From the NCBI RefSeq assembly GCF_030285625.1, contig NZ_CP127294.1, positions 8,216,001 to 8,280,000 on the forward strand: 64,000 nucleotides of DNA. The letters run 5' to 3'. Origin of the DNA: Amycolatopsis sp. 2-15 (lineage in GTDB: Bacteria; Actinomycetota; Actinomycetes; Mycobacteriales; Pseudonocardiaceae). A program made the position numbers and the translations under genes. Of the stretch, positions 45,765-60,029 are shown one piece after another. Numbering within the stretch: position 1 is the stretch's first letter; every line of letters begins with the position of its first letter. The notes under the pieces are model-generated. The model ran no database searches. It saw nothing but the letters and a program-made list of their open reading frames with translations, and was not told where the DNA came from.

Positions 45765-46952
45765 ATGGGACAGAGCGTGGTGGTCGTGGGCGCGGGTCCG
45801 GTGGGCGCGGTGTTCGCGCTCGCGGCCGCCCGGCGGGGGTTCGACGTGACGCTGCTGGAAGCGGAGCAGGCCGTCGAGGACGCCCCGCGAGCCGCGACCG
45901 TGCACCCCTCCACCCTGGCGATGCTCGGCGAGCTGGGCCTGATGGACGACGTGGTCGCCCGCGGGCTCGTCGCGCGGTACTTCGACTTCTGGGACCGGCC
46001 GGAGCGTTCGCTCATCGCCCGGCTCGACCACAACGTGCTGCGAGACGTGACGCCTTATCCGTTCGTGGTCCAGATCGAGCAGCACAAGATCGTGAACATG
46101 GTGCTGGAGCGGCTGTCCGGAGTGGACGTCCGCTTCGGTGCCGCGGTGACGGGCGTGACGCAGGACGCGGACTCCGCCACCGTGCACACGTCCGAGGGCC
46201 CGGTGACCGCCGACTACGTGATCGGCGCCGACGGCGGGCGCAGCACCGTGCGCAAGGCGCTGGGGATCGAGTTCGAGGGCTACACGTGGCCCGAGCGGTT
46301 CCTGGTGCTCACCACGCTGTTCGACTTCCAGTCCGAACTGGACTGCAGCTACCGCAACTACTGGGCCGACCCGCGCGAGTGGGTCAACCTCTTCAAGGTC
46401 GCCGGCGACGACGGCAAGGGCCGCTGGCGCGCCGTCTTCCCCACCACCGTGGGCGAAACCGACGAGGAAGCCGTCGGCGACGAGGGCGCGCGGGCCCGGC
46501 TTTCGGGCCTGGCGCTCTCGGCGAACCCGGCGGACCAGCTCGTGCACCGCAAGCTGTACAACGTCCACCAGCGCGTGGCGGCCAGCTTCCGCTCCGGCCG
46601 CGTCTTCCTCGCCGGCGACGCCGCCCACGTCAACAACCCCATCGGCGGCCTGGGCCTGAACTGCGGCATCCACGACGCCGTGGAGCTGGCCTCCTCGCTG
46701 CACACCTTCGCCGCCACGGCCGACGAGAACGTCCTCGACCGCTACGACCTGCGCCGCCGCACGGTGAACATCGAGTTCGTGCAGCAGCAGACCGTGACGA
46801 ACAAGCGCCGCCTGGAGGAGAAGGACCCGGTGCGGCGCAAGGAACGCCTGGCCGAGCTCGCGGCGCTGGGTGACCACGCGGAGCTGGAGCTGAAGTTCCT
46901 GATGAACTCCTCCCTGCTCAACAGCGTGGCCCGCGCGGCCTCGCTCGGCTGA
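45765..46952 (+). CDS. FAD-dependent aromatic monooxygenase (PheA/UbiH type)
   Basis: The 395-aa protein has the group A flavoprotein monooxygenase motifs: VVVVGAGPVGAVFALAAARRG for FAD, GADGGRSTVR for the DG motif, and FLAGDAAHVNNPIGGLGLN for the GD motif. It hydroxylates a small aromatic or heteroaromatic ring with NAD(P)H and O2. It starts 17 bp after the hydrolase gene and ends the operon before a 21-bp stem hairpin. Confidence 0.92.
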   Translation: MGQSVVVVGAGPVGAVFALAAARRGFDVTLLEAEQAVEDAPRAATVHPSTLAMLGELGLMDDVVARGLVARYFDFWDRPERSLIARLDHNVLRDVTPYPFVVQIEQHKIVNMVLERLSGVDVRFGAAVTGVTQDADSATVHTSEGPVTADYVIGADGGRSTVRKALGIEFEGYTWPERFLVLTTLFDFQSELDCSYRNYWADPREWVNLFKVAGDDGKGRWRAVFPTTVGETDEEAVGDEGARARLSGLALSANPADQLVHRKLYNVHQRVAASFRSGRVFLAGDAAHVNNPIGGLGLNCGIHDAVELASSLHTFAATADENVLDRYDLRRRTVNIEFVQQQTVTNKRRLEEKDPVRRKERLAELAALGDHAELELKFLMNSSLLNSVARAASLG

Positions 46953-47065: not shown

Positions 47066-47863
47066 CTAGAGGCGGATGCCGGCGAGCTGGGTGCCCTGGG
47101 CGACCAATTTGCCGGTGCTGTCCCAGACGTGGCAGGACTCGTCGACGCGGCCGTCGGTGATCAGGTGGGCGCGGTGCTGGACGCGGAGCGGGCCGGGGGC
47201 CGGGTGGGCGCGGACGTAGGCCGTGAGCTCGAGCGTGGGTACCCAGCCGCTCGGTGAGATGTCGAACGTGGCGGGCGGGAAGGCGTCGACGGCGAACAGG
47301 AGGCTGACCGGGTCGAAGGGTTCGCCGCCGGGCAGGGTGAGGTGGCCGAGGAGCTCGCCGCGGCCGGAGGGGCCGTCGGTGAAGACGCGGGCACTGTCGG
47401 GGTCGAGGCGGATCTCGATCTCGTCCATGATGGCCACCGGCAGGCCGAGCGGTGTGGTGCCCGGGACGCGGAACGAGGGCTCGACGTCGAGGCGCGGGTC
47501 GGGCAGGCCGTCCTGCCAGTACGGCTCTCCTTCGGCGAGCGTGCCGACCGTGAAGAGGGCCTCGACGGCCGTCTTGCCGTTCTGGACGAGACGGCCGCGC
47601 ACCTGGCTCGAGCCGCGGCCGGTGCGCAGCGTCTCGATCTCGACCTCGGCCGGGCCCGGGTCGGGTGAGCGCAGGTAGTGGGCACTGGCGGCGAGCACGT
47701 CGGGGTGCTCACGCTCGGCGACGGCGGCGCGCGCGATCAGCGAGAGCAGGTAGCCGCCGTTGGGCTTGCCGCCGATCGTCCACTGCGGGCTGATGTCCGC
47801 GTCGAAACCATCGGGCGACCGCCGTTTGACGGCGGACACCGCGGCGAAGGTCGTCGTGCTCAC
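47066..47863 (-). CDS. Acyl-CoA thioesterase-like double-hotdog protein
   Basis: The 265-aa protein has the TesB-like double hotdog layout: DADISPQWTIGGKPNGGYLL in the first half, HYLRSPDPGPAEVEIETL, and a second half with PATFDISPSGWVPTLELTAYV and CHVWDSTGKLVAQGTQLAG. Such proteins hydrolyse acyl-CoA thioesters in the cytosol. It stands apart from the catabolic operons on both sides; its substrate is unknown. Confidence 0.88.
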   Translation of the reverse strand: MSTTTFAAVSAVKRRSPDGFDADISPQWTIGGKPNGGYLLSLIARAAVAEREHPDVLAASAHYLRSPDPGPAEVEIETLRTGRGSSQVRGRLVQNGKTAVEALFTVGTLAEGEPYWQDGLPDPRLDVEPSFRVPGTTPLGLPVAIMDEIEIRLDPDSARVFTDGPSGRGELLGHLTLPGGEPFDPVSLLFAVDAFPPATFDISPSGWVPTLELTAYVRAHPAPGPLRVQHRAHLITDGRVDESCHVWDSTGKLVAQGTQLAGIRL

Positions 47864-47957: not shown

Positions 47958-48800
47958 TCAGAACCCGTACAACTCGACCGGGTTGTCGACCAGGATCCGC
48001 CGGCCGACGTCCGGGCCGGTCCAGTCGAGCAGGCGGGCCGGCGCCCGCGCGTCGTCGATCCGCTCGAACGGCTCGACGCTCAGGCGGTTTCCCGGAGTGC
48101 GCGGCCGGCCACCGGTGTGGGGCCAGTCGGTACCCCACAGGAGCCGCTCGGGTGCGGCGGTCGCCAAAGCCTCCACGAGCGGCCCGACGTCCGCGTGGTC
48201 AGCAGCAGTGGAAATCCGGTGCGGCGCAGAGAGCTTGACGTACGCCGCACCGGATCGCAGGAGGTCGGTCAGCTCGGGCAAGCCGGGCCGGCCGAGGTCG
48301 GGAGAAGCGAGCGCGAAGTGGTCGAGGACAACCGGCACCGGCAGCCGCGCCAGGTCGTCGGCCAGAGCCGCGACCACCGACAGCTCCGTGAACACCTGCA
48401 GGTGCCAGCCGAGGTCCGCGATGGCCGCCGCGGTCGCGCGCAGCGGCGCCAGGGCCACGGCCGGGTCGTCGACCGCGAACGTCGCCAGGTTCACCCGCGC
48501 CCCGCGCACCCCCAGGGCGTGCCACTCCCCCAGCGGCGCCGGGGCAGCGGGGTCGAACACCACGACACCCCGCGCCCGGTCGCCGCGGACGCGCAGCTGC
48601 GCGAGCAGGCACGAGTTGTCCGTGCCGTACGGGCTCGGCTGCACGAGCACCGCCCGGCTCACGCCGAGCCGCCAGTGCAGCTCGTCCAGCTGCTCACCGC
48701 TCGCCGGGCCCGGTGTGTAGGCCCGGTCCTCGGCATAGGGGAACCGCGGGTCGAACACGTGCACGTGGCAGTCGCACGAACCGGAGGGCACCACCGTCAC
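47958..48800 (-). CDS. Amidohydrolase family (2-pyrone-4,6-dicarboxylate lactonase-like)
   Basis: The 280-aa protein has CDCHVHVFDPRFPYAEDRAY at the start (the metal- or substrate-binding HxH of the LigI/AHS superfamily), a VLDHFA stretch mid-way, and LLWGTDWPHTG with the catalytic Asp near the end. LigI-type enzymes hydrolyse 2-pyrone-4,6-dicarboxylate, a lactone of aromatic breakdown; other members act on lactones of sugars or dicarboxylates. It is the last gene of the operon started at 53008, with a 4-bp overlap upstream. Confidence 0.9.
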   Translation of the reverse strand: MTVVPSGSCDCHVHVFDPRFPYAEDRAYTPGPASGEQLDELHWRLGVSRAVLVQPSPYGTDNSCLLAQLRVRGDRARGVVVFDPAAPAPLGEWHALGVRGARVNLATFAVDDPAVALAPLRATAAAIADLGWHLQVFTELSVVAALADDLARLPVPVVLDHFALASPDLGRPGLPELTDLLRSGAAYVKLSAPHRISTAADHADVGPLVEALATAAPERLLWGTDWPHTGGRPRTPGNRLSVEPFERIDDARAPARLLDWTGPDVGRRILVDNPVELYGF

Positions 48801-49834
48801 CGCACGGCGCTCGCGAACTCGGACAGCCGGGCCAGCACCCCGTCGTCCACGGGCACGCCGTCGCGCAGCTGCCGGTGGTAGCGCGCGAGCTCGAACTCAC
48901 CCGGCAACCGCACGGGCTGCGCCGGGTCCGCGGGCGGCGTGGTGTGCAGGATGCCCGCGAAGTCGTCCATCCGGGACGCCAGCTCGGCACCGGGCACGAG
49001 CTTCGCCGTGTCGATCAGGAAGAACACGTGGCCCAGGTTCTGCGGCCGCTCCGGATCGACGCTCCACGAGCTGATGCGCGTGAGGTAACCGGCGCCCGAG
49101 AGCACGCCGGCGAACAGGTCGACCATCACCGACAGACCGTAACCCTTGTGCCCGCCCAATGGCTGCAGGAAGCCGTCCAACGCGGCCGCGGGATCCGTGG
49201 TCGGCTTGCCGTCGCGGTCGGTGGCCCAGGTGTCCGGAATGGACTCCCCCGCCGCCGCGGCCGCGCGGATCTTCGCCCGCGCCGCCACGCTCATCGCGAT
49301 GTCCAGCAGCACCGGGTCGCCGCCGGGCATGGGCACGCCGATGCCGAGCGGGTTGTTGCCCAGCCGCGCCTCGCGGCCGCCCCACGGGGCGATGGTGGTG
49401 GTCGCGTTGCTCGCGATGATCGCCGCAAACCCCTGCTCCGCAGCACGGAACAGATACGGCATCACCGGTCCGAAGTGGTTGCTGCCGCGGACAAAAGCCG
49501 CGCCCAGGCCGGTCGCGCGGGCCGAGGCCAGCGCCACGTCCAGCGCGTGCGAGCCGACCAGCGGCCCGATGCCGTTGGCCCCGTCCACTCGCGACAACGC
49601 CGGCGCGACCTGGTCCACCGCCACCTTCGCGTGGAGGTCGACGCCGCCGAGGCGCGCGCGGTCGAGATACTGCGGGATCCGCGCGACGCCGTGCGTGCGG
49701 ATGCCGAAGAGGTCGGCGAGCACCAGCACGTCGGCGACGCGCGCGGAGTCCTCTTCGGACATCCCGTTCCCCGCCAGCGCGCGGGCCGCCAGCCCGCGCA
49801 GGTCCTCGGCGGTGATCTGGGTGTCGCCGGTCAT
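48797..49834 (-). CDS. Ldh family oxidoreductase (malate/L-lactate/ureidoglycolate dehydrogenase type)
   Basis: The 345-aa protein starts at the ATG at 49834 (MTGDTQITAEDL). It has the family motifs LFGIRTHGVARIPQYL, GSNHFGPVMPYLFRA, NNPLGIGVP and GGHKGYGLSVMVDL. These NAD(P)-dependent enzymes, unrelated to the Rossmann lactate dehydrogenases, oxidise 2-hydroxy acids such as sulfolactate, malate or ureidoglycolate. It overlaps both neighbours by 4 bp. In this operon it would interconvert a 2-hydroxy acid and a 2-oxo acid. Confidence 0.93.
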   Translation of the reverse strand: MTGDTQITAEDLRGLAARALAGNGMSEEDSARVADVLVLADLFGIRTHGVARIPQYLDRARLGGVDLHAKVAVDQVAPALSRVDGANGIGPLVGSHALDVALASARATGLGAAFVRGSNHFGPVMPYLFRAAEQGFAAIIASNATTTIAPWGGREARLGNNPLGIGVPMPGGDPVLLDIAMSVAARAKIRAAAAAGESIPDTWATDRDGKPTTDPAAALDGFLQPLGGHKGYGLSVMVDLFAGVLSGAGYLTRISSWSVDPERPQNLGHVFFLIDTAKLVPGAELASRMDDFAGILHTTPPADPAQPVRLPGEFELARYHRQLRDGVPVDDGVLARLSEFASAVR

Positions 49835-50574
49835 CGGTGGTTTTCTCCTTCGGTCAGGTCGAACTCGGTGGTCGCGGCGAGATCTTCGCCGAACCACGAA
49901 CGGATCCCGGCTCGCCGGGTGTCCGTGTAAACCGGGCCGTCGTGCCACAGCATCGGCACGTCGTGGCCCGGCACGAGCAGCGTGTCCGGGTGTTCCCGCC
50001 ACAGGGTGAGGATCTTGCGCACGGACGCGCGGCTCGCGTCGCGGTCGAGCGTCATGTCGACCTCCCCGCCCAGCAGCTCCGCGCGGTTCTTCGCCGCGTC
50101 GCCGCTGAACAGCACGGAACCGTCCACGCGGAACACCAGCGAGCCCGGCGTGTGCCCGGCCGCGGCGAACGCCTCGACACCGGGGAAGATCTCGCCGTCT
50201 TCGCTCACCCGCCGCGTCCGCGGGTTGCTCGCCAGATCGGCGGCGTACAGCTCGGGCAACGGGTCGAACCCCGGCTCGCGCCCGGCCGCCCACTCCAGCT
50301 CCGCCGCACCCACCCACACGGTGGCCGACGGGAAGAGCAGGTAGTTCGCGGCGTGGTCGTAGTGCGCGTGCGTGAGCAGGATGTCGGTGACCTCACCCGG
50401 TGCCACGCCGTGGTCGGCGAGGCGCTGCGCGAGCAGAGAGCGCATTCCGAACGAACCCGTGTCGGCCAGGATCAGCCGCTCGCCGTGGCGCACGAGGGTG
50501 ACGCTGCTCCAGCCGAGCCCGCCGTGCTGCGTGCTCTTGCCGGGATAACCCTGGGTCAGCGGAAGGATGTTCAC
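49831..50574 (-). CDS. MBL fold metallo-hydrolase
   Basis: The 247-aa protein (GTG at 50574, overlapping the permease stop by 4 bp) has the metal-binding HxHxDH in LLTHAHYDHAANY (His69, His71, Asp73, His74), a later His in AAGHTPGSLVF, the bridging Asp in FSGDAAKN and a final His in VPGHDVPML. It resembles the lactonase-type MBL enzymes, and may open a lactone or hydrolyse an ester in the same pathway. Confidence 0.9.
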   Translation of the reverse strand: MNILPLTQGYPGKSTQHGGLGWSSVTLVRHGERLILADTGSFGMRSLLAQRLADHGVAPGEVTDILLTHAHYDHAANYLLFPSATVWVGAAELEWAAGREPGFDPLPELYAADLASNPRTRRVSEDGEIFPGVEAFAAAGHTPGSLVFRVDGSVLFSGDAAKNRAELLGGEVDMTLDRDASRASVRKILTLWREHPDTLLVPGHDVPMLWHDGPVYTDTRRAGIRSWFGEDLAATTEFDLTEGENHR

Positions 50575-51902
50575 CGCGCCTCCGGGGAAACCTTGTCGAC
50601 GGCGGGAACCACGGCCTCGTCGTGGTCGAAGGTCCGCCGGGCGTAGAACAAGACGATCGCGGTGATCAGGCCGAGCGCGGCCAGGTACACGCCGAGGCCG
50701 TACGGGCCGCCGGTCACGTCGTTGAGCCACACGCCGATGATCGGGCCGGTGCCGCCGAACAGGGCCTGCGCCACGTTGTAGGCGAGCGCGCCCGCCGTGA
50801 CGCGCACGGCCGTCGGGAAGATCTGGCTGATCGCGAGCAGCGCCGGCAGCGCGAGCAGGCCCTTGCAGGCGCCGATGAGCGCGCCGCCGGTGAACGCGCC
50901 GACCCCGCCACCCGCGGCGAGCGCCAGCGACGGCACCGCGAGGATCGCGACCACGAGCCCGGTCAGGCTCAACGCCTTGCGCAGCCCGATCTTGTCCGCC
51001 ACCGGGCCCATCACGAGCGTGCCGGCGATGACGAGCACGTTGCTCACGATCGTCGCGTTGTAGGCCTCGGTGCTGTCGAGCTTGCCGACGTTGATGAGGA
51101 ACGTGGTGAGGAACGACGTGATGGTGGTGCTCAGCAGCGCGTAGCTCGCGGTGCAGACGATGAAGATGACGATCGGCACCCAGTGCAGGCGCAGGGCGTC
51201 GCGCAGTGGGGTGGCGGCGGCCTTCGCCTTCTCGCGCGCCTTGACCAGCAGCTCGAACTCCGGGCTCTCCTCGACCTTCGAGCGCAGGTACACGCCGAAC
51301 GCGGCCAGCGGCAGGCCGACGAGGAACAGGATGCGCCAGCCGAACGTCTGGTACTCGTCCTTGGTCAACACGCTCGAGAACACCCGCGCGAGCAGCGATC
51401 CACAAAGGATCCCGATGAACGTGGTGGCGATCAGCGTGCTCACGTTGCGGGCGCGTTTGGCGGCCGGGCTGTGCTCGAACACGAAGCTGATCGCGCTCGC
51501 GTACTCGCCGCCCGCGCCCATCGACTGCGCGAGCCGGCACACGAGCAGCAGCACCGGCGCCAGCAGGCCGATCTGCGCGTAGGTGGGCAGCACGCCCATG
51601 AGCGCGGTGCCGAAGCAAGTGAACAGGATCGAGATCGACAGCGCGCGGCGGCGGCCGTACTTGTCGCCGATCCAGCCGAAGAAGATGCCGCCGATGGGGC
51701 GGGCGATGTAGCCGAGCGCGAACACGGCGTAGGTGTTGAGCAGCGCCACGGCGGGATCGTTGCCGGGGAAGAACTTGGCGGCGATGATCGTGGCGACCAC
51801 GCCGTAGACGCCCCAGTCGTACCATTCGGCGAAGTTGCCGGCCGAGGCCGCGATGATGATGCGGCGCCGGCGGGCGCCGGTGAACTCGAGCTCCGTGTTC
51901 AT
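50571..51902 (-). CDS. MFS transporter, metabolite:H+ symporter (MHS) type
   Basis: The protein of about 443 aa (ATG at 51902, MNTELEFTGARRRR; an ATG at 51926 is the alternative) has 12 membrane segments and MHS marks: NFAEWYDWGVYG in segment 1, GWIGDKYGRRRAL after segment 2, and a GWRILFLVGLPLAAFG stretch. MHS members import citrate, 2-oxoglutarate, shikimate or dicarboxylates with protons. It lies between a tartrate/isopropylmalate-dehydrogenase-like gene and the MBL gene, so the substrate is probably a hydroxy di- or tricarboxylic acid. Confidence 0.93.
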   Translation of the reverse strand: MNTELEFTGARRRRIIIAASAGNFAEWYDWGVYGVVATIIAAKFFPGNDPAVALLNTYAVFALGYIARPIGGIFFGWIGDKYGRRRALSISILFTCFGTALMGVLPTYAQIGLLAPVLLLVCRLAQSMGAGGEYASAISFVFEHSPAAKRARNVSTLIATTFIGILCGSLLARVFSSVLTKDEYQTFGWRILFLVGLPLAAFGVYLRSKVEESPEFELLVKAREKAKAAATPLRDALRLHWVPIVIFIVCTASYALLSTTITSFLTTFLINVGKLDSTEAYNATIVSNVLVIAGTLVMGPVADKIGLRKALSLTGLVVAILAVPSLALAAGGGVGAFTGGALIGACKGLLALPALLAISQIFPTAVRVTAGALAYNVAQALFGGTGPIIGVWLNDVTGGPYGLGVYLAALGLITAIVLFYARRTFDHDEAVVPAVDKVSPEAR

Positions 51903-51937
51903 GACGGGTGTTTCCGTTCTCTTCATCGGGAAAGGAG

Positions 51938-53008
51938 TCAGGTGAGCCGCGCCGCGACGGCTTCCGCGACGGCCACGGGGCCGCCCGTCGCCGAGCCGTC
52001 GGGCCGGATGCGGATGTCGCCGGCCTCGAGCGCACCGGCGACGGCCGCGCGCACGAGGTCACCCTCGGCGGTGTGGTGCAGGTGGTCGAGCATCATCGCG
52101 GCGGCGAGGATCTGGCCGATCGGGTTCGCGAGGCCCTGGCCGGCGATCGAGGGCGCGCTGCCGTGGATGGGCTCGAAGTACGCGCTGACGTCGCCGATGT
52201 TGCCGGAGCCGCACAGCGAGATGCCGCCGACGGTCGCGCCGCCGAGGTCGCTGAGCACGTCACCGAGGAAGTTCTCCATCACCAGCACGTCGAAGTCGCC
52301 CGGGCGCAGCACCAGGGCCTGGGCCGCGGCGTCGGCGTAGAGGACCTCGGTCTCGATGTCCGGGAAGTCGGCGGCGACCTCGAAGAAGGTCTCGCGGAAC
52401 AACGCGTGGCTGCGCAGCACGTTGCTCTTGTCCACACAGGTCACGCGGTGCTTGCCGTCGCCGGGCGCGCCGCCGCGGGCGGCCGCGAGCTCGAACGCGC
52501 GCCGGCAGATGCGCAGCGTGCCCTCGCGGGTGGTCATGAGCGTGTCGGACACGGCCCAGCGGTTGCCGACGCCCTTACCGCGCGAAGCGTAAAGGCCCTC
52601 GGTGTTCTCGCGGACGATGACGTAGTCGATGCCGCCGGCCGGCACCCCGCCCAGCGCCGACGTGACGCCGGGCAGCAACAGGGCCGGGCGGACGTTGGCG
52701 TACGCGTCGAGCCCGATCCGCAGGATGCCGCCGAGCAGGCCGGCCTCGGTGCCGTCCGGGAAGCGCACGTCGGGCAGGCCGACCGGGCCTTTGAGCGTGG
52801 CCGCCACGGCGGTGCGCAGGTATTCGAGGTCTTCGGGTGAGCAGGCCACGCCGGTGCGGCGGTAGGTGTCGGCGCCGGCGTCGACTTCGCTGTAGTTCAG
52901 CTCGAAGCCGCCCTTGGCCGTGACCGCGCCCAGCACGGTGAGCGCGGCGTCGACCAGCTCGGGACCGATCCCGTCCCCTCGGATGACGGCGATGTCGTGA
53001 ACCTGCAC
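51938..53008 (-). CDS. Isocitrate/isopropylmalate dehydrogenase family (tartrate dehydrogenase-like)
   Basis: The 356-aa protein starts at the GTG at 53008 (VQVHDIAVIRGDGIGPE) behind GAGGTGG; the open frame extends to 53056 through the operator. It has the family's AVIRGDGIGPELV, RENTEGLYASRG, VDKSNVLR and the metal-binding Asp in ENFLGDVLSDLG, then EPIHGSAPSIAGQG. It oxidatively decarboxylates a 2-hydroxy acid with NAD(P) and Mg/Mn. It is first in the operon. Divergence from LeuB and the context suggest a catabolic substrate such as tartrate or a malate homologue. Confidence 0.93.
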   Translation of the reverse strand: MQVHDIAVIRGDGIGPELVDAALTVLGAVTAKGGFELNYSEVDAGADTYRRTGVACSPEDLEYLRTAVAATLKGPVGLPDVRFPDGTEAGLLGGILRIGLDAYANVRPALLLPGVTSALGGVPAGGIDYVIVRENTEGLYASRGKGVGNRWAVSDTLMTTREGTLRICRRAFELAAARGGAPGDGKHRVTCVDKSNVLRSHALFRETFFEVAADFPDIETEVLYADAAAQALVLRPGDFDVLVMENFLGDVLSDLGGATVGGISLCGSGNIGDVSAYFEPIHGSAPSIAGQGLANPIGQILAAAMMLDHLHHTAEGDLVRAAVAGALEAGDIRIRPDGSATGGPVAVAEAVAARLT

Positions 53009-53026
53009 TGGCACTCCACCTCGAAA

Positions 53027-53059
53027 ATCAATATAATCAACATTGAGCATCAACATTGA
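53027..53059. promoter_or_regulatory. Triple ATCAAYAT operator in the divergent promoter
   Basis: ATCAATAT (53027-53034) and two ATCAACATTGA copies (53036-53046, 53049-53059) follow each other. TCAA-CA-TTGA in the latter two is palindromic. The array lies directly above the dehydrogenase start and about 130 bp before the HTH-citrate-synthase gene. That protein is the obvious candidate to bind it. Confidence 0.6.
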
Positions 53060-53188
53060 CGAGAACGACGAGAACGTAGGCCTGCCCGGAATCCGTTGTC
53101 AACCCGATGTTTCTGTTCCGTGACAAGCATTGGCGGTCACTAGACTCGCCGCGAACCGAAGTATGCGCAGGAGGAGGGGTCAGCTGCA

Positions 53189-54361
53189 GTGAGCACCGAC
53201 ACTGAGGTGCTGTCGATCGCCGAGGCAGCCGACGTCCTCGGGGTCAAGCAGAGCACGGTGTACGCCTACATCAGCCGTGGCCTGCTGAAACGCCACCGGC
53301 TCCCCCGCGACCGGCGCAGCTGGCTCTCGCGCAGCGAGGTCGAGGGGTTCGGGCAGCGCAAGGGCACGCGCACACTCCTGCACGACGACGAGCCGGCGGT
53401 CTCGGCCGACACCAGCCAGGTCGCGCGCCTCGACGGCGACGCGCTGCTCTACCGCGAGCGCGACGCCGTGGAGCTCGCGCGCACGGCGTCGTACGAAGAG
53501 GTGGCCGAGCTGCTGTGGGAGCAGCCCGATGTGGCGCCCGCGCGGGACCTCGAACCGGAGCTGGTCACGGCCATCCGCCGGCTGCAGGACACCATGCCGG
53601 CCAGCAGCCTGCCGCTCGACCGGCTCAAGGTCACCGCGACGCTGCTCGGCGCGCGCGACTCGTTCCGCTACGACCTGTCCGTGCCGTCGGTGCTCTCGGC
53701 GGCGCGCACGATGGCGCCCGCGTTCGTGGAGTCGCTGCCCCAGCCGGGCGCGGTATGCGAGCGCGGCCGGCCCATCGCGGAGCGGCTGTGGGGCCGGCTC
53801 ACCGCGGAACCCGCGACGCCGGAACGGCTCGCGGTGCTCTCGGCCGCCCTGGTCCTGCTGGCCGACCACGGCCTCGGCCCGTCGACGCGTGCCGTGCGCG
53901 AGGCCGCGGCCAAGGCGGCGGACCCGTACTCGGCCGTGCTCGCGGGCATGAGTGTCGCGAGTGGACTGTTGCTGGGCGGTGGGTCGTCACTCGCGGTGCA
54001 GGCTTGGCTGGGTGACATCGCCTCGCCCGCTTCGGTTTCCCGGGTGCTCGAACAACGCCTCCTGCGCGGCGACCGGCTGTCCGGCTTCGGGCAGCCGCGG
54101 TACCGCAGTGCCGACCCCCGCGCGACGGAGCTGCTGCGCCTGCTCGCCGAGGCGCCCGCCGACCCCGAACGGCTCGCGATCGTCGAGGCGGCCATCGACC
54201 TCGTGCGCCGCCGCCGCGATCTCGAGCCGAACGTCGAGTTCGCGCTGGGCGCCTTGTGTTTCGTCCACGGGATGGCCGAGGGCGCCGGGGAGGCGGTGTT
54301 CGTGATCGCCCGCACGGCGGGGTGGATCGCGCACTCGCTGGAGACCTACACCGTCCAGTGA
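53189..54361 (+). CDS. HTH-citrate synthase fusion with replaced catalytic residues (probable metabolite-sensing regulator)
   Basis: The 390-aa protein has an N-terminal HTH (about residues 7-54, LSIAEAADVLGVKQSTVYAY) joined by a linker to a citrate-synthase-like domain (about 75-390). In citrate synthases the catalytic His, His and Asp lie in GPxHGGAN, GFGHRVY and PNVDF. Here these read SGLLLGGGS (Leu262), SGFGQPRY (Gln302) and PNVEF (Glu350). All three are changed, while the fold's end IARTAGWIAHSLE is well kept. The domain probably binds a tricarboxylate, oxo-acid or acyl-CoA and controls the divergent operon at 53008. Similar fusions exist in actinobacterial databases as citrate synthase, a misleading name. 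Confidence 0.85.
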   Translation: MSTDTEVLSIAEAADVLGVKQSTVYAYISRGLLKRHRLPRDRRSWLSRSEVEGFGQRKGTRTLLHDDEPAVSADTSQVARLDGDALLYRERDAVELARTASYEEVAELLWEQPDVAPARDLEPELVTAIRRLQDTMPASSLPLDRLKVTATLLGARDSFRYDLSVPSVLSAARTMAPAFVESLPQPGAVCERGRPIAERLWGRLTAEPATPERLAVLSAALVLLADHGLGPSTRAVREAAAKAADPYSAVLAGMSVASGLLLGGGSSLAVQAWLGDIASPASVSRVLEQRLLRGDRLSGFGQPRYRSADPRATELLRLLAEAPADPERLAIVEAAIDLVRRRRDLEPNVEFALGALCFVHGMAEGAGEAVFVIARTAGWIAHSLETYTVQ

Positions 54362-54368
54362 GGACGCC

Positions 54369-56240
54369 TCAGCCGAGCCGGCTGCGGCGGTGGGCGGCCA
54401 TGCGGACGGGTGCGTTGGCGGCGCCGTAACCCGCGTAGCCGTCGATCCGTTGCAGGACCTCGAAGAACACCCGTCCACCCAGGATCTCGGTGAAGAAGTG
54501 CAGCAGGACGCCGTGCTCGTCGCGGTCGTAGAGGATCGAGTGGGCGCGCAGGGCATCCAGCAGGTCCGGCGGCGGGGCGAGGCGGGCGTCGAGGTCGTCG
54601 TAGTAGTTGCCGGGGATCGGCAGGAGCGGCGCGCCGAGGTCGCGCATCACGCGGGCGCTCGCGAGCGCGTCGGCCGTGGTGAAGGCGATGTGCTGTGGTT
54701 CGCGCACGCCCGGGGCCCAGTCGCCGCGGCGCAGGAGCGCGGAGTCCAGGGCGATGCGCACGGTGCCGCTCTCGGTTCCGCCGCTGACCGTGCGGCTGCG
54801 CACGAGACCGAACGGCGCGGCGAACTCCGTGACCGGGTCGGGCTCGAGGCCGAGCACCGCACGGTAGAACAGCGCGGCCTCGTCGAAGTGGTCGAACGGC
54901 TGCGTCAGCGACACGTGGTCGACGCCCGTGACTCCGGCATCCACGGCTTTTCCTGCCACGGCGGCGAAATCGTCCAGCCAGCTGCCACCGGGACCGGTGC
55001 GGCAGAAGAACACCGAGGTGCCGTCGGGAGCGGCGACCGCGGACAGGTCGGCCTCCCCCGCGCTGTGCGTGCGCGGCAGCAACGGCGCGAGCAGCCGCTG
55101 CGCGCGGTCCGCCGAGGCCACCGGGTCGGCGCTCTCCACCGCGAGCGCGACCACAGAGGCGCTCTCGCCGGCCCCTTGGCCGGCCCCCTTGTCGAACGCA
55201 GTGTCGGACGTTGTGCCGGACGCGGCGGAGTTGACGAGGATCCGCGCTTCGCCCTGCTGCCACAGCGCGACGGGTTTGGTCCGATGCTGCCCCATGTGCG
55301 CGAAACCGAGTGCCGCCAACGCTTGCCCGACCTCGGCACCGGCCGTGGCGATCTCCGTGAACGCGTGCCCGCTCAGCGCCGGCGCGGCCGGCAAGGTCGT
55401 CGCGCCGAGCGATTCCTCCAGTGCCAGCAGCGATCGCATGGCGTCGACGGCGGCCGGGCCTGGGTCGGCCTGGCGGAACACATCGTTGAACACCTCCAGC
55501 GACAGCGGCCCGGAGTAGCCGGCCGCGCGCACGTGGCCGGTGAAGGCCGTGAGGTCGAACGCGCCCTGGCCCGGGAAGAGCCGGTGGTGGCGGCTCCACT
55601 GCAGCACGTCCATCTCCAGCCGCGGCGCGTCGGCCAGCTGGAGGAAGAACAGCTTCTCCCCCGGGATCGTCCGGATCGCGGCGGGATCGCTGCCCCGGGA
55701 CAGGATGTGGAAACTGTCGAGGCACAGCCCGAGCGCGGGGTGCGCGGCGCGGCGCACGATCCGCCACGAGTGTTCGTAGGTGTTCACGAACCGGCCCCAC
55801 GCCAGGGCTTCGTACGCGATCCGCAGCCCGCGCGCGGCGGCGCGCTCGGCCAGCGTGTGCAGCTGTTCGGCGGCGAGATCGTCGTCGTCGACCGCGTCCG
55901 GGGATACCGAAGAGCACACGAGCATCGTGTCGGCGCCGAGCTGCTCCATCACGTCGAACTTGAGTTCCGCGCGGCGCAGGTTCGCCGCGAGCACGGCGGG
56001 CGCCACGGCCTCGAAGTCGCGGAACGGCTGGTAGAGGTCCACCGTCAGGCCGAGGTCCGCGCAGTGCTCGCGCACCTGTTTCGGCGACCACGGCGAGGCG
56101 ATCAGGTCGTTTTCGAAGATCTCCACGCCGTCGAACCCGGCGGCCGCGGCGGCGGTGAGCTTGTCCTCGAGCGTGCCGGACAGGCACACGGTGGCGATCG
56201 CCCGTCGGTTTTCGAGGGCGTGAGTTTCAGTCGAGGACAT
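54369..56240 (-). CDS. quiC: Bifunctional 3-dehydroshikimate dehydratase / HPPD-like protein
   Basis: The 623-aa protein (ATG at 56240) has an N-terminal TIM-barrel of the xylose-isomerase/AP-endonuclease-2 type (about 10-280; AAAAGFDGVEIFENDLI, LCLDSFHILSRG, SLEVFNDVFR) and a C-terminal HPPD/glyoxalase domain with metal ligands in GVDHVSLTQ, EPQHIAFTT and VFFEVLQRIDGY. This fusion is known for QuiC1-type enzymes that convert 3-dehydroshikimate to protocatechuate. It overlaps the AroE-type gene by 14 bp. It is not accompanied by protocatechuate dioxygenase here. Confidence 0.9.
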   Translation of the reverse strand: MSSTETHALENRRAIATVCLSGTLEDKLTAAAAAGFDGVEIFENDLIASPWSPKQVREHCADLGLTVDLYQPFRDFEAVAPAVLAANLRRAELKFDVMEQLGADTMLVCSSVSPDAVDDDDLAAEQLHTLAERAAARGLRIAYEALAWGRFVNTYEHSWRIVRRAAHPALGLCLDSFHILSRGSDPAAIRTIPGEKLFFLQLADAPRLEMDVLQWSRHHRLFPGQGAFDLTAFTGHVRAAGYSGPLSLEVFNDVFRQADPGPAAVDAMRSLLALEESLGATTLPAAPALSGHAFTEIATAGAEVGQALAALGFAHMGQHRTKPVALWQQGEARILVNSAASGTTSDTAFDKGAGQGAGESASVVALAVESADPVASADRAQRLLAPLLPRTHSAGEADLSAVAAPDGTSVFFCRTGPGGSWLDDFAAVAGKAVDAGVTGVDHVSLTQPFDHFDEAALFYRAVLGLEPDPVTEFAAPFGLVRSRTVSGGTESGTVRIALDSALLRRGDWAPGVREPQHIAFTTADALASARVMRDLGAPLLPIPGNYYDDLDARLAPPPDLLDALRAHSILYDRDEHGVLLHFFTEILGGRVFFEVLQRIDGYAGYGAANAPVRMAAHRRSRLG

Positions 56241-57159
56241 CGGCGGGTTCCCTTTCCCCTGGGGCGGCGAGCCGGTCGAAGTGCCGCCGCATGCGCGCGG
56301 CGTCGGGTTCGGCGCCGGTGAACAGGGCGAGCGCGTCGGCGGCCTGGAACACGGCCATCCGGCCGCCGTCGAGCACGCGACAGCCGCGTTCGGAGGCGAC
56401 GCGCACGAGCTCCGTCTCCAGCGGCCGGTACACGACCTCCGCGACCCACAGCCGCGGATCGAGCAGCTCGGCCGGCAGCGGCAAGCCCGGGTGCGCGGCC
56501 ATGCCGACCGGGGTGGCGTGGACCAGACCGTCGGCGGCGGCCAGCGCCGAGGCCACCGAGCCGCCGGCCGAAGCCCGCTCCGCACCGAAGCGCGCTTGCA
56601 GTGCCGTGGCGAGCGCCTCGGCCCGCGCGGTGTCCAGGTCGAGCACGCGCACGCGGCCCGCGCCGAGCGTGAGCAGGCCGTGGGCGACGGCCGCTCCGGC
56701 GCCGCCCGCGCCCAGCAGCACGACGGAGCCCAGCGGCACGCCCGGCAGCCCCGTTTCGAGGCCGCGAGCGAAGCCGGACCAGTCGGTGTTGTGCCCGGCC
56801 GCCGTGCCTTCGCGGAACACCACGGTGTTCACGGCGGCGAGCGCGGCGGCGTCGGCCGACAGCTCGTCGAGGTGCTCCAGCACGACCTGCTTGCACGGGT
56901 GCGTCACGTTGAGCCCGGCGTAGCCCGCGGCGCGCGCGGCCGCCACCACCTCGCCCGCGGCGCTCGCGGGCAGGCCCCAGTCGTCGAGGTCGAAGCGGGC
57001 GTAGGCGAGCCGCACGCCGAGCCGGCGCGCCTCGGCCTCGTGCAGCGGCGGGCTCAGCGACGGGCCGATGCCCGAACCGACGAGCCCGGCGAGCACGGTG
57101 CCCGGGCCGGAGCGGCGGGCGTGCTCGCGGACCGCGTCCACGACCGTGGCTGGGTACAC
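56227..57159 (-). CDS. Shikimate/quinate dehydrogenase (AroE/QsuD-like)
   Basis: The 310-aa protein (GTG at 57159 behind AAAGGA) has the shikimate-binding SLSP (34-37), catalytic Lys90 in NVTHPCKQ, Asp126 in GHNTDWSG and a Rossmann VVLLGAGGAGAAVAHGL. Members interconvert shikimate or quinate with their 3-dehydro forms using NAD(P). Adjacent to the dehydroshikimate dehydratase and a permease, it is likely catabolic rather than biosynthetic. Confidence 0.93.
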   Translation of the reverse strand: MYPATVVDAVREHARRSGPGTVLAGLVGSGIGPSLSPPLHEAEARRLGVRLAYARFDLDDWGLPASAAGEVVAAARAAGYAGLNVTHPCKQVVLEHLDELSADAAALAAVNTVVFREGTAAGHNTDWSGFARGLETGLPGVPLGSVVLLGAGGAGAAVAHGLLTLGAGRVRVLDLDTARAEALATALQARFGAERASAGGSVASALAAADGLVHATPVGMAAHPGLPLPAELLDPRLWVAEVVYRPLETELVRVASERGCRVLDGGRMAVFQAADALALFTGAEPDAARMRRHFDRLAAPGEREPADVLD

Positions 57160-57253
57160 AGGTTTCCTTTCGACGAGGCGGTGGTGCCGGGCGGGTTTGC
57201 GGCGAAGCGGCCTACAGTGGAGCGAGATCCAGCCGGAGGGAGAAGGGACGTCT

Positions 57254-57910
57254 GTGGCCGCACCGTCGCCGGAAGACGCCGCCGGGAAAGACCGCACCCG
57301 CGACGCCGAGCGGACCAAGGCCGAGATCCTCGACGTCGCCGCCGCGGAGTTCGCCGAGAAGGGCTACGACGGCGCCCGCGTGGAGGAGATCGCGGCGAAG
57401 ACCCGCACCACCAAGCGGATGATCTACTACTACTTCACCAGCAAGGACCAGCTCTTCGTCACGGTGCTGGAGCGGGCCTACACGGTGATCCGGTCGCTGG
57501 AGCAGGAGCTCGACGTCGACCACCTCGACCCGGTCGACGCGATCCGCCAGCTCGCCGAGCTCACCTTCGACCACCACGAGTCCCACCCCGGTTTCGTGCG
57601 GCTGGTGAGCATCGAGAACATCCACCGCGCCGAGCACATCGCGCGCTCCACCACGCTGTCGACGCTCGCCAACCCGGCGCTCGACGTGCTCACCCGCATC
57701 CTCGAACGCGGCCGCGCGGCCGGGCTGTTCCGCGAGGACGTGGACGCGCTCGACGTGCACATGGCCATCAGCGCGTTCTGCGTGTTCCGCACCGCGAACC
57801 GCTACACGTTCAACGCGATCTTCGGCCGCGACCTGCTCGACCCGGCCACGCGCGAGCACCACCGGCGCATGCTCGGCGACCTGCTCGTGAGCTACCTGAC
57901 CGCGAGCTGA
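57254..57910 (+). CDS. TetR family transcriptional regulator
   Basis: The 218-aa protein (GTG at 57254 behind AGAAGGGA) has a TetR HTH (ILDVAAAEFAEKGYDGARVE, RTTKRMIYYYFTSKDQLF) and a helical ligand domain of the kind found with aromatic or shikimate catabolic genes. It is divergent from the dehydrogenase/dehydratase operon and converges with the MBL gene, so it probably responds to shikimate, quinate or protocatechuate. Confidence 0.92.
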   Translation: MAAPSPEDAAGKDRTRDAERTKAEILDVAAAEFAEKGYDGARVEEIAAKTRTTKRMIYYYFTSKDQLFVTVLERAYTVIRSLEQELDVDHLDPVDAIRQLAELTFDHHESHPGFVRLVSIENIHRAEHIARSTTLSTLANPALDVLTRILERGRAAGLFREDVDALDVHMAISAFCVFRTANRYTFNAIFGRDLLDPATREHHRRMLGDLLVSYLTAS

Positions 57911-57915
57911 GGCCC

Positions 57916-58680
57916 TCACGCGATCCTCGCGATCCGGCCGGACTTCTCCGTCGGGTAGCGGTCGAGCACGCGCGGGTCGTGGCCCGGCAGGAAGATCCCC
58001 GACGGCCCGGCCAGCTCCCGGATGCGGTCGAAGCCGCCGTACACGCCGGTGGTCGAGTGCAGCAGCGGCGCCGGGTGGTCGGCTTCGAGGTTCTCGTAGA
58101 AGTGGCTGGCGTCGGAGGCGACCACGACCGGCCCGGCCGCGGTCGCGATCCGCACCACCTGCGTGCCGGCGGTGTGGCCGCCCACGAGATGGACGCTGAG
58201 GCCGGGCACCACGTCGGCGTCGCCGTCGACGAGCCGCAGCCGGTCGTGGGCCTGGAGCCGGTGCAGCTCGACATCGTCGAGCAGCCAGTGCTCCCGAGTG
58301 ATGCGCTTGGCCCACGGCCCGGTCCAGTAGTCCATTTCGGACTGCTGCACGACACAGGTCGCGCCCGGGAAGGCGCTCGCCCGGCCGGCGTGGTCGTAGT
58401 GCAGGTGGGTGAGCACCACGTGGTCCACGCCTTCGGGCCCGACGCCGAACTCCGTGAGCAACTCCACCGGGTCGGTGTATGCCAGCCCGGGCACCTCCGC
58501 CGCACGTTCCGGGCGCATCCCGGCGTCGACGAGCACCGTGTGCTCCGGTGAGACGGCGAGCCACACGTAGTACGCCGTCGGGTGCGGCTCGGTGGAATCC
58601 GTGCCGTGGCCCAGGAAGTGGTCTCCGCGGACGCCGTCTCGCCGGGCGTAGCACAGGGCGTGGACCTCGAACGTGCTCAC
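57916..58680 (-). CDS. MBL fold hydrolase (N-acyl-homoserine-lactonase family)
   Basis: The 254-aa protein has HxHxDH in VVLTHLHYDHAG (His92, His94, Asp96, His97), a His in GGHTAGTQVV, Asp in VASDASHFYEN and a final His in LPGHDPRVL. Sequence and length fit the AiiA-like group, but many members act on other lactones. It overlaps the permease gene upstream by 4 bp, so it is likely a step for the same transported compound. Confidence 0.9.
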   Translation of the reverse strand: MSTFEVHALCYARRDGVRGDHFLGHGTDSTEPHPTAYYVWLAVSPEHTVLVDAGMRPERAAEVPGLAYTDPVELLTEFGVGPEGVDHVVLTHLHYDHAGRASAFPGATCVVQQSEMDYWTGPWAKRITREHWLLDDVELHRLQAHDRLRLVDGDADVVPGLSVHLVGGHTAGTQVVRIATAAGPVVVASDASHFYENLEADHPAPLLHSTTGVYGGFDRIRELAGPSGIFLPGHDPRVLDRYPTEKSGRIARIA

Positions 58681-60029
58681 TGCTGGACGCCGACCTCACT
58701 CGCCTGCCGTGCCGGCGCGTTCTTCAGGCCCAGCAACGCGGTCGGGACCCGGTAGGTCTCTCGGCCGGTGGCCACGGCGATCGCGTTGACCACGCACAGC
58801 CCGGCGGTGAAGATCGCGACGCCGAGCCACGCGCCGCGGCCGTCACCCGCGACAGCCGCCGCCACGCTCGGCAGGAAACCGCTGATGGCGAAGCCGATCT
58901 GGGTGCCGATCGCGGTGCCGGACAGGCGCACGCGGGCCGGGAACATCTCGCCGTAGAACGAGGGCCAGATGGCGCTCGTCGCGGTGTAGACGATGCCGAA
59001 CATGCCGATGCCGAGCACGAAGATCCACACGTAGCTGCCGGCGGCGATCGCGCCGAGGTAACCGAAGATGAGCACCGCGCAGCCGAGCGAGCCCGCGATG
59101 AAGATCTTCTTGCGGCCCTTGCGGTCGGACAGCTTGGCCCACAGCGGGATCGAGATCACGGCGGCAACGTTGGCGAGCACCCCGACCCACAGCATCGGCG
59201 TTTTGCTCAGCCCCACCGTGTTCACGGCGTAACTCAGGGCGTAGACGGTGAAGATCGTGCTGACCGAGGCGATGAGCGCGGCGACGATCACGCGCAGGAC
59301 GTCGGCCCAGTGGTCACGCAGCAGCACGGCGAGCGGCAGCCGGACGACCTCGCCGGCGGCGACCTCCTCGCGGAACACCGGCGTCTCCTCCACGGAGCGG
59401 CGGATGAAGTACCCGACCGCGACCATCACGGCGCTGAGCCAGAACGGCACGCGCCAGCCCCACGACAGCAGCGCGTCCTGCGGCAGCGCGGCGACCGGCA
59501 GGAACACCGCCGTGGCCACGATCTGCCCGGCTTGCGTGCCGCTGAGGGTGAAGCTCGTGTAGTACGCGCGGCGGTGCTCCGGCGCGTGTTCGAGGCTCAT
59601 CGAGTTGGCGCTCGCCTGCTCGCCGCCCGCGGAAAGCCCTTGCAGCAGCCGCAAAACGACGAGCAGCACCGGCGACGCGACGCCGATCGCCTCGTAGCTG
59701 GGCAGGCAGCCGACGAGCACAGTGGACAGGCCCATGAGCAGCAGCGTCGCGATGAGCACGCGTTTGCGGCCGAACCGGTCGCCCAGGTGGCCGAGCAGCA
59801 GCGCACCGAGCGGGCGCGTGACGTAACCGACGCCGAACGTCGAGAGCGCGAGGAGCGTGCCCGCGGCCGGCGAGGACGCCGGGAAGAAGATCTTGCCGAA
59901 GACCAGCGCGGCGGCGGTGCCGTAGATGAAGAAGTCGTAGTACTCGAGCGCGCTGCCGATCCACGCGGCGAGCGCCGCTTTCGCGGGCCGGCCCGCGGCG
60001 GGCGCCGCTCGATCTGCTCGACCGTTCAC
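58677..60029 (-). CDS. MFS transporter, MHS type (shikimate-transporter-like)
   Basis: The 450-aa protein has 12 segments and MHS marks: AWIGSALEYYDFFIYGTAAA in segment 1, GHLGDRFGRKRVL after segment 2, RLLQGLSAGGEQA. ShiA of E. coli belongs to this group. The neighbouring dehydroshikimate dehydratase and AroE-type genes make shikimate or quinate the likely cargo. An operator-like palindrome lies 42 bp above the start. Confidence 0.92.
   Translation of the reverse strand: MNGRADRAAPAAGRPAKAALAAWIGSALEYYDFFIYGTAAALVFGKIFFPASSPAAGTLLALSTFGVGYVTRPLGALLLGHLGDRFGRKRVLIATLLLMGLSTVLVGCLPSYEAIGVASPVLLVVLRLLQGLSAGGEQASANSMSLEHAPEHRRAYYTSFTLSGTQAGQIVATAVFLPVAALPQDALLSWGWRVPFWLSAVMVAVGYFIRRSVEETPVFREEVAAGEVVRLPLAVLLRDHWADVLRVIVAALIASVSTIFTVYALSYAVNTVGLSKTPMLWVGVLANVAAVISIPLWAKLSDRKGRKKIFIAGSLGCAVLIFGYLGAIAAGSYVWIFVLGIGMFGIVYTATSAIWPSFYGEMFPARVRLSGTAIGTQIGFAISGFLPSVAAAVAGDGRGAWLGVAIFTAGLCVVNAIAVATGRETYRVPTALLGLKNAPARQASEVGVQQ

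Follow-up and report, generated by a model that had tools for sequence, protein, structure and literature searches.

A predicted one-component regulator built on an altered citrate synthase fold in Amycolatopsis sp. 2-15, and its wider family

In the genome of Amycolatopsis sp. 2-15, one gene encodes a helix-turn-helix (HTH) domain joined to a citrate synthase domain in which the catalytic residues are replaced, and this gene is divergent from an operon of metabolic genes. The question raised by this locus is what a protein of this kind does. An earlier note on this DNA had proposed that the enzyme domain was reused as a metabolite sensor and that the protein regulates the facing operon. Here, this proposal is examined for the whole analyzed stretch of 64,000 nucleotides (64 kb), herein referred to as the window, and for related fusions in other genomes.

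Domains and active-site residues of the fusion protein

The following features of the fusion gene were found, all on the plus strand:

53189..54361, plus strand: HTH-citrate synthase fusion gene, 390 aa, GTG start after a AGGAGGAGG Shine-Dalgarno sequence (ORF list, profile search, alignment)
53207..53317, plus strand: HTH_17 domain, residues 7-43 (32.1 bits, Pfam cut-off 27)
53399..54346, plus strand: Citrate_synt domain, residues 71-386, catalytic residues lost (164.1 bits, cut-off 27)
53972..53974, plus strand: Leu262 codon, at the site of catalytic His264 of Escherichia coli (alignment; Leu in 7 of 7 species of the L/Q/E form described below, His in two H/Q/E relatives)
54092..54094, plus strand: Gln302 codon, at the site of catalytic His305 (alignment; Gln in 9 of 9 clade members)
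54236..54238, plus strand: Glu350 codon, at the site of catalytic Asp362 (alignment; Glu in 9 of 9 clade members)

Both domains claimed by the earlier note were thus recovered above their cut-offs. HTH_17 is a MerR-like/excisionase-like type of DNA-binding domain; the MerR profiles themselves were not reached by the fusion (PF00376, 23.3 bits against a cut-off of 28.2; MerR_1, 17.6 against 21.6), and an HTH sequence resembling LGVKxxTVYAYxSRG is recurrent throughout the family of HTH-citrate synthases. For the citrate synthase part, many citrate synthases of known structure were among the matches, the best one listed being 6abx (6e-25), and PDB chains of Mycobacterium tuberculosis CitA are among its fold matches. 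Among the 52 matches listed in the PDB sequence search, none covers both the HTH and the citrate synthase parts.

In the MAFFT alignment with E. coli GltA (residues numbered as printed, one higher than in the mature E. coli protein), the catalytic residues H264, H305, and D362 correspond to L262, Q302, and E350 of the fusion, exactly the three replacements named in the earlier note. The fusion matches the PF00285 profile and fold without the His/His/Asp triad. Additionally, H226 corresponds to L224; this residue is changed throughout the set of 91 HTH-citrate synthases compared here, including those with an intact triad. Shifted catalytic residues, a possibility that the earlier note had left to be checked by alignment, were ruled out, as the motifs at all three sites align without a shift (GFG[Q]..Y...DPR and PNV[E]F). 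The replacement of Asp by Glu was dismissed as proof of catalytic death by itself, because second citrate synthases with both His residues also carry Glu; this combination was seen in L003 and the divergent second citrate synthases, in the listed rows covering the site.

The carboxylate-binding residues R314 and R387 of GltA are kept as R311 and R375. The column of R407 is a gap, so that only two of the three carboxylate-binding Arg residues are present, the third being missing because the fusion protein ends before this column. Consequently, the statement that the fold and its Arg-containing end are retained holds for the fold, R311, and R375 and fails for the C-terminal Arg. None of the listed NCBIfam cut-offs for citrate synthase or citryl-CoA lyase was reached; the best model was PRK12350.1, with 120.9 bits against a cut-off of 332. 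The predicted structure of the fusion has a pLDDT of 64.5, with residues 254-265 below 50 and a pocket too weak for an overlay. Structure comparison, at the level of the fold only, returned citrate synthase matches, and the equivalence of L262 rests on the sequence alignment because the model is weak at residues 254-265.

The divergent operon and the nearest relatives

Five genes, all on the minus strand, are transcribed away from the fusion gene:

51938..53008, minus strand: isocitrate/isopropylmalate-type dehydrogenase (Iso_dh), start at 53008 inferred, longest ORF from 53056 (profile searches; divergent in 9 of 9 clade members)
50571..51926, minus strand: MFS transporter of the metabolite/H+ symporter type, below the cut-off of that model (profile searches)
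49831..50571, minus strand: metallo-beta-lactamase-fold hydrolase (profile search)
48797..49831, minus strand: Ldh_2 malate/lactate-type dehydrogenase (profile search)
47958..48800, minus strand: Amidohydro_2 protein related to 2-pyrone-4,6-dicarboxylate hydrolase (profile searches)

The five-gene operon described earlier was thus borne out by the profile searches. The dehydrogenase likely starts at the GTG at 53008, as read from its Shine-Dalgarno sequence. In the NCBIfam search, none of the five proteins scored above a cut-off, and no substrate could be assigned from it. Next to the operon lie a gene for a 4HBT_3 thioesterase (47066-47863) and a gene that by eye resembles an FAD monooxygenase (45768-46952); among the flanks that were read, only those of the two nearest genomes contain them. 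On the other side of the fusion gene, positions 54369-60029 hold genes for a QuiC-type 3-dehydroshikimate dehydratase, a shikimate dehydrogenase, a TetR regulator, a metallo-beta-lactamase-fold protein, and an MFS transporter, likely a quinate/shikimate cluster. The QuiC, shikimate dehydrogenase, and TetR block was likewise found, within the flanks read, only in the two nearest genomes (tblastn), and therefore looks like a separate cluster.

Close relatives of the fusion are few. The near form was found in 3 of 80 genomes of the genus search, the window's own genome included, and in the search of the taxonomic family the form with Leu, Gln, and Glu (herein L/Q/E) was found in 7 of 390 genomes, together with two genomes encoding His, Gln, and Glu (H/Q/E). 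In the resulting clade of nine, which includes Saccharopolyspora soli, L/Q/E is present in all seven near species and H/Q/E in the two next relatives, so that Gln and Glu are common to all nine. R311 and R375 are also kept in 9/9. The C-terminal Arg is absent from 8/9 in the alignment; in L084 an Arg is aligned at the very end, and an earlier alignment also placed one in L103.

When the window genes were compared with the clade flanks by tblastn, the divergent dehydrogenase gene was found in all nine members and the whole five-gene operon in seven of them, which are precisely the seven L/Q/E species. The three replacements and the operon, whose conservation the earlier note had proposed to survey, occur together in all seven L/Q/E species found. 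The two H/Q/E relatives retain only the first gene of the operon, the isocitrate/isopropylmalate-type dehydrogenase. Beyond the two nearest genomes, the only window genes found in the clade flanks are the fusion and the operon genes, without TetR. The dN/dS ratio of the citrate synthase domain is 0.07-0.15 against the four nearest orthologues, indicating purifying selection, and 0.41 and 0.36 against the more distant L084 and L103 (dS 0.60 and 0.83). The domain does not have the look of a degenerating relic.

Citrate synthases form stable dimers. The HTH might bind an operator while the citrate synthase domain only dimerises, with either no metabolite or a partner protein sensed. The loss of the catalytic residues and the C-terminal Arg agrees with such a purely structural role. 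Nevertheless, R311 and R375 are kept throughout the clade, the domain is under purifying selection in the near orthologues, and the divergent partners of the wider family are often enzymes or carriers able to handle citrate-like acids; we regard a regulator without a sensor as unlikely.

The palindrome and the wider family of fusions

Two copies of a candidate operator were found between the fusion gene and the likely dehydrogenase start by pattern scans and family comparison, with no strand assigned:

53037..53046: operator copy 1, TCAACATTGA
53050..53059: operator copy 2, TCAACATTGA, 13 bp from copy 1

Both are instances of the 10-bp palindrome TCAANNTTGA and represent its sole occurrences in the window, against 0.13 expected; the repeated operator of the earlier note is thus real, even though the repeat finder left the two copies unpaired. 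They lie inside the longest dehydrogenase ORF yet ahead of the GTG at 53008 that likely starts the gene. In the 10-Mb genome, the longer pattern ATCAACATTGA was found three times, twice in the window, and its reversed control once. The third occurrence (L136:1501; G000:C1:7780105-7780115) is located between a 305-aa ORF and a 446-aa ORF, the latter transporter-like by eye, and is possibly a second target.

Fusions of this type are more widespread than the L/Q/E form. The survey covered searches of Actinomycetota and a plasmid collection, of which 9 of 54 records were opened. Matches to the fusion at an E-value of 1e-36 or better were found in 89 of 390 genomes of the taxonomic family, and matches at 1e-40 in 24 of 396 genomes drawn from the phylum. 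In total, 91 fusions were compared, comprising 51 fetched stretches, 31 search loci, 8 plasmid-collection loci, and the window; further matches exist outside this set. L059 and L117 were dropped (partial or doubtful HTH), L007 (S. soli) and L102 are the same record and were counted once, and L141 and L147, two strains of one species, were both kept. A Paenibacillus match (L146) was rejected as an ordinary citrate synthase without an HTH. Family members are also found in Pseudomonadota, where the fusion of Agrobacterium fabrum C58 is divergent from a citrate/methylcitrate synthase gene. The window's own genome encodes a paralogue (L002/L100; G000:C1:7453934-7455028) with an intact His/His/Asp triad and an aldehyde dehydrogenase gene downstream; no TCAANNTTGA was found in the 330 bases upstream of it, and no divergent partner was recognised.

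The catalytic triad is intact in 74 of the 91 fusions and altered in 17 (LQE in 7, HED in 3, HQE in 2, KHG in 2, THA in 2, and SRV in 1). One fusion with lost catalytic residues (I or S, R, V by alignment) was found on a plasmid of Cupriavidus oxalaticus (L144, 5001-6125), near genes for a porin, MFS transporters, and a Tn3 transposase. In the tree, the 91 fusions are split from eleven outgroup citrate synthases with an SH-aLRT support of 100. Parsimony gives five changes between intact and altered triads, two of which are forced by branches of at least 95, on a tree built by a quick method in which some long branches are of unsure place. Since 74 of 91 members keep the triad, the regulator idea has to cover the whole fusion family, with catalytic death as a derived state that, on this tree, appears to have been reached more than once.

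These intact members, which may be enzymes, also bear on whether the L/Q/E protein is an active enzyme of a changed reaction, such as a lyase or hydrolase acting on a citrate-like acid, that binds DNA as well. Its replacements would then represent new chemistry, and the metabolic character of the divergent operon is compatible with this. Against it, all three catalytic residues are changed, the C-terminal Arg is absent, and the fusion reaches no NCBIfam citrate synthase or citryl-CoA lyase cut-off, so that this alternative has very little probability.

A recognised divergent gene is faced by 80 of the 91 fusions, and none was recognised for 11. The partners are a second citrate synthase in 59 cases (two of them 633 and 880 bases away), the isocitrate/isopropylmalate-type dehydrogenase in 9, a homocitrate-synthase/HMGL-like gene in 6, and an MFS transporter in 6; gene calls at the comparison loci come from a GC-position heuristic, which makes the neighbours approximate except for those confirmed by search.

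The palindrome accompanies the fusions across this family. TCAANNTTGA was found in 42 of 51 upstream regions of 330 bases each, against a mean of 0.065 and a maximum of 1 in 200 shuffles, and the rest of these loci, 917 kb in all, yielded only three sites. Of the 256 four-base palindromes with a two-base gap, the next most frequent was present in 9 of 51 regions. In the enlarged set, from which L006 was left out for want of a true HTH, 72 of 83 regions contain the exact palindrome; among the 11 others, a version with one mismatch is present in three, and in L102 an exact site lies at a greater distance upstream. Most sites have a pyrimidine followed by a purine as their two middle bases, and a second copy, where there is one, is usually 13 or 15 bp off. 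When the upstream regions were sorted by partner, with 82 of the 91 fusions covered, TCAANNTTGA was found in 70 of the 75 for which a divergent partner had been recognised and in 1 of the 7 others. A conserved palindromic site lies between the fusion and its divergent gene. At loci L084-L135, which carry 22 genus labels, at least 18 of these labels have a palindrome-bearing locus. In the plasmid collection, the palindrome was found near 7 of 8 HTH-citrate synthases read, Pseudomonadota included, the only exception being L144, in whose locus no TCAANNTTGA was found. It is present at the fusions of Agrobacterium, Caballeronia, Paraburkholderia, and Ensifer. Two K/H/G loci, L089 and L090, lack TCAANNTTGA and have TTGATCCATCAATCAA just upstream, with the same half-sites otherwise arranged. 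A chance repeat was ruled out by the expectation for the window and the shuffle comparison, although the counts do not amount to a probability, because the compared species are related and not independent.

It could also be supposed that TCAANNTTGA is the site of another regulator acting at these promoters, while the HTH of the fusion has a different role. A TetR gene is located 3 kb away in the window, and binding of TCAANNTTGA by the fusion is a prediction. Nonetheless, the palindrome tracks HTH-citrate synthase genes in both Actinomycetota and Pseudomonadota and is rare elsewhere in the same loci, and TetR was not found in the clade flanks beyond the two nearest genomes, where the fusion and the operon genes are the only window genes seen. 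We give this possibility the least credence of all those considered.

Proposed mechanism and comparison with known systems

The fusion is probably a one-component regulator of the divergent operon, in which a non-catalytic citrate synthase domain serves as a sensor of a carboxylate or acyl-CoA. The proposal of a regulator made from a citrate synthase is supported by the conservation of L/Q/E in 7/7 species, by the divergent dehydrogenase in 9/9 clade members, and by the palindrome preceding most of the members examined, in two phyla; DNA binding and the ligand are inferred. In the proposed mechanism, the N-terminal HTH would bind the TCAANNTTGA palindromes between the two divergent transcription units, and the bound protein would control the putative hydroxy-acid operon and probably its own gene. 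The citrate synthase domain, presumably inactive, may provide a dimer platform and a pocket that accommodates a small carboxylate (or acyl-CoA); DNA binding would then be altered as the fold opens and closes. The Leu in place of His in the pocket, together with the absence of the C-terminal Arg in 8/9 clade members, suggests a ligand with fewer carboxylates than citrate, perhaps a malate-like acid on which the isocitrate/isopropylmalate-type dehydrogenase acts.

The most likely mode of control would be repression, lifted by the malate-like 2-hydroxy-dicarboxylate that the operon may use. Repression is preferred because the operators sit where promoters should be. The scan of positions 52900-53300 gave a single promoter-like match, facing the fusion gene, whose -10 box (53032-53037) abuts operator copy 1; this would fit self-repression of the fusion gene. 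In the same interval, no promoter-like site facing the operon was found by the scan, and the dehydrogenase promoter was read by eye. Family-wide, -35/-10 placement at the operator was found in 8 regions on one strand and 9 on the other, where the controls had means of 3.5 and 4.5 (maxima 9 and 13). This result is not significant, so promoter placement was rejected as proof of repression, and the mode of control is a guess.

For the family as a whole, the best reading of the sequences is that of transcription factors on a citrate synthase fold, with the L/Q/E clade as a putative catalytically dead sensor for its divergent operon. This clade would have descended from the wider family, which shares the palindrome and is mostly catalytically intact. 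With somewhat less confidence than for the L/Q/E protein itself, we favor a single regulator class comprising the HTH-citrate synthases of Actinomycetota and Pseudomonadota, intact ones included. Its members would bind TCAANNTTGA and sense citrate-like acids, oxaloacetate, or acyl-CoA through the pocket; the intact ones may double as enzyme and regulator of a divergent citrate or homocitrate synthase, and several lineages may have given up catalysis while keeping the pocket for a new substrate.

If true, genes that are currently annotated as additional citrate synthases would encode regulators, and the reading of central metabolism in actinomycetes and rhizobia would be altered. The common 10-bp palindrome makes this claim directly testable. 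With the active site lost in several of its branches, this single fusion family would offer a natural gradation between enzymes and pure sensors, and a sensor with a citrate synthase fold could be a biosensor part for organic acids.

The citrate synthases and 2-methylcitrate synthases of PF00285 have in common with the fusion the fold, most of the length, and the residues corresponding to R311 and R375. In contrast to them, the fusion has an HTH in front, replacements of His/His/Asp, no C-terminal Arg, and scores below every NCBIfam citrate synthase cut-off listed. Regulators of the MocR/GabR type carry a GntR winged helix HTH fused to a PLP aminotransferase fold that serves as the sensor; they resemble the fusion in placing an HTH on a whole metabolic enzyme fold and differ in the enzyme fold and in the type of HTH. 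The protein of A. fabrum C58 (WP_236762366.1, annotated as "citrate synthase family protein") has the same domain order and a divergent gene as in the window, and TCAANNTTGA precedes its HTH, at a point within the 5' end of the gene as annotated. However, its His/His/Asp triad is intact and it faces a citrate/methylcitrate synthase rather than an isocitrate/isopropylmalate-type dehydrogenase. In Streptomyces coelicolor, two putative citrate synthases, SCO5831 and SCO5832 (citA3/citA4), have one common intergenic region and thus resemble the pairs of an HTH-citrate synthase and a second citrate synthase, although the accessible part of that report mentions no DNA-binding domain (PMC12323332). 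A regulatory role apart from catalysis, in cell cycle control, was described for the citrate synthase CitA of Caulobacter; here too, the accessible part of the report mentions no DNA-binding domain, unlike in the fusion (PMC7083601). In a literature search, no description of an HTH-citrate synthase regulator was recognised among the matches listed. Regulators that join an HTH to an enzyme fold are known from MocR/GabR, and a version on citrate synthase, with its own palindrome, members in two phyla, and several losses of catalysis, appears to be new.
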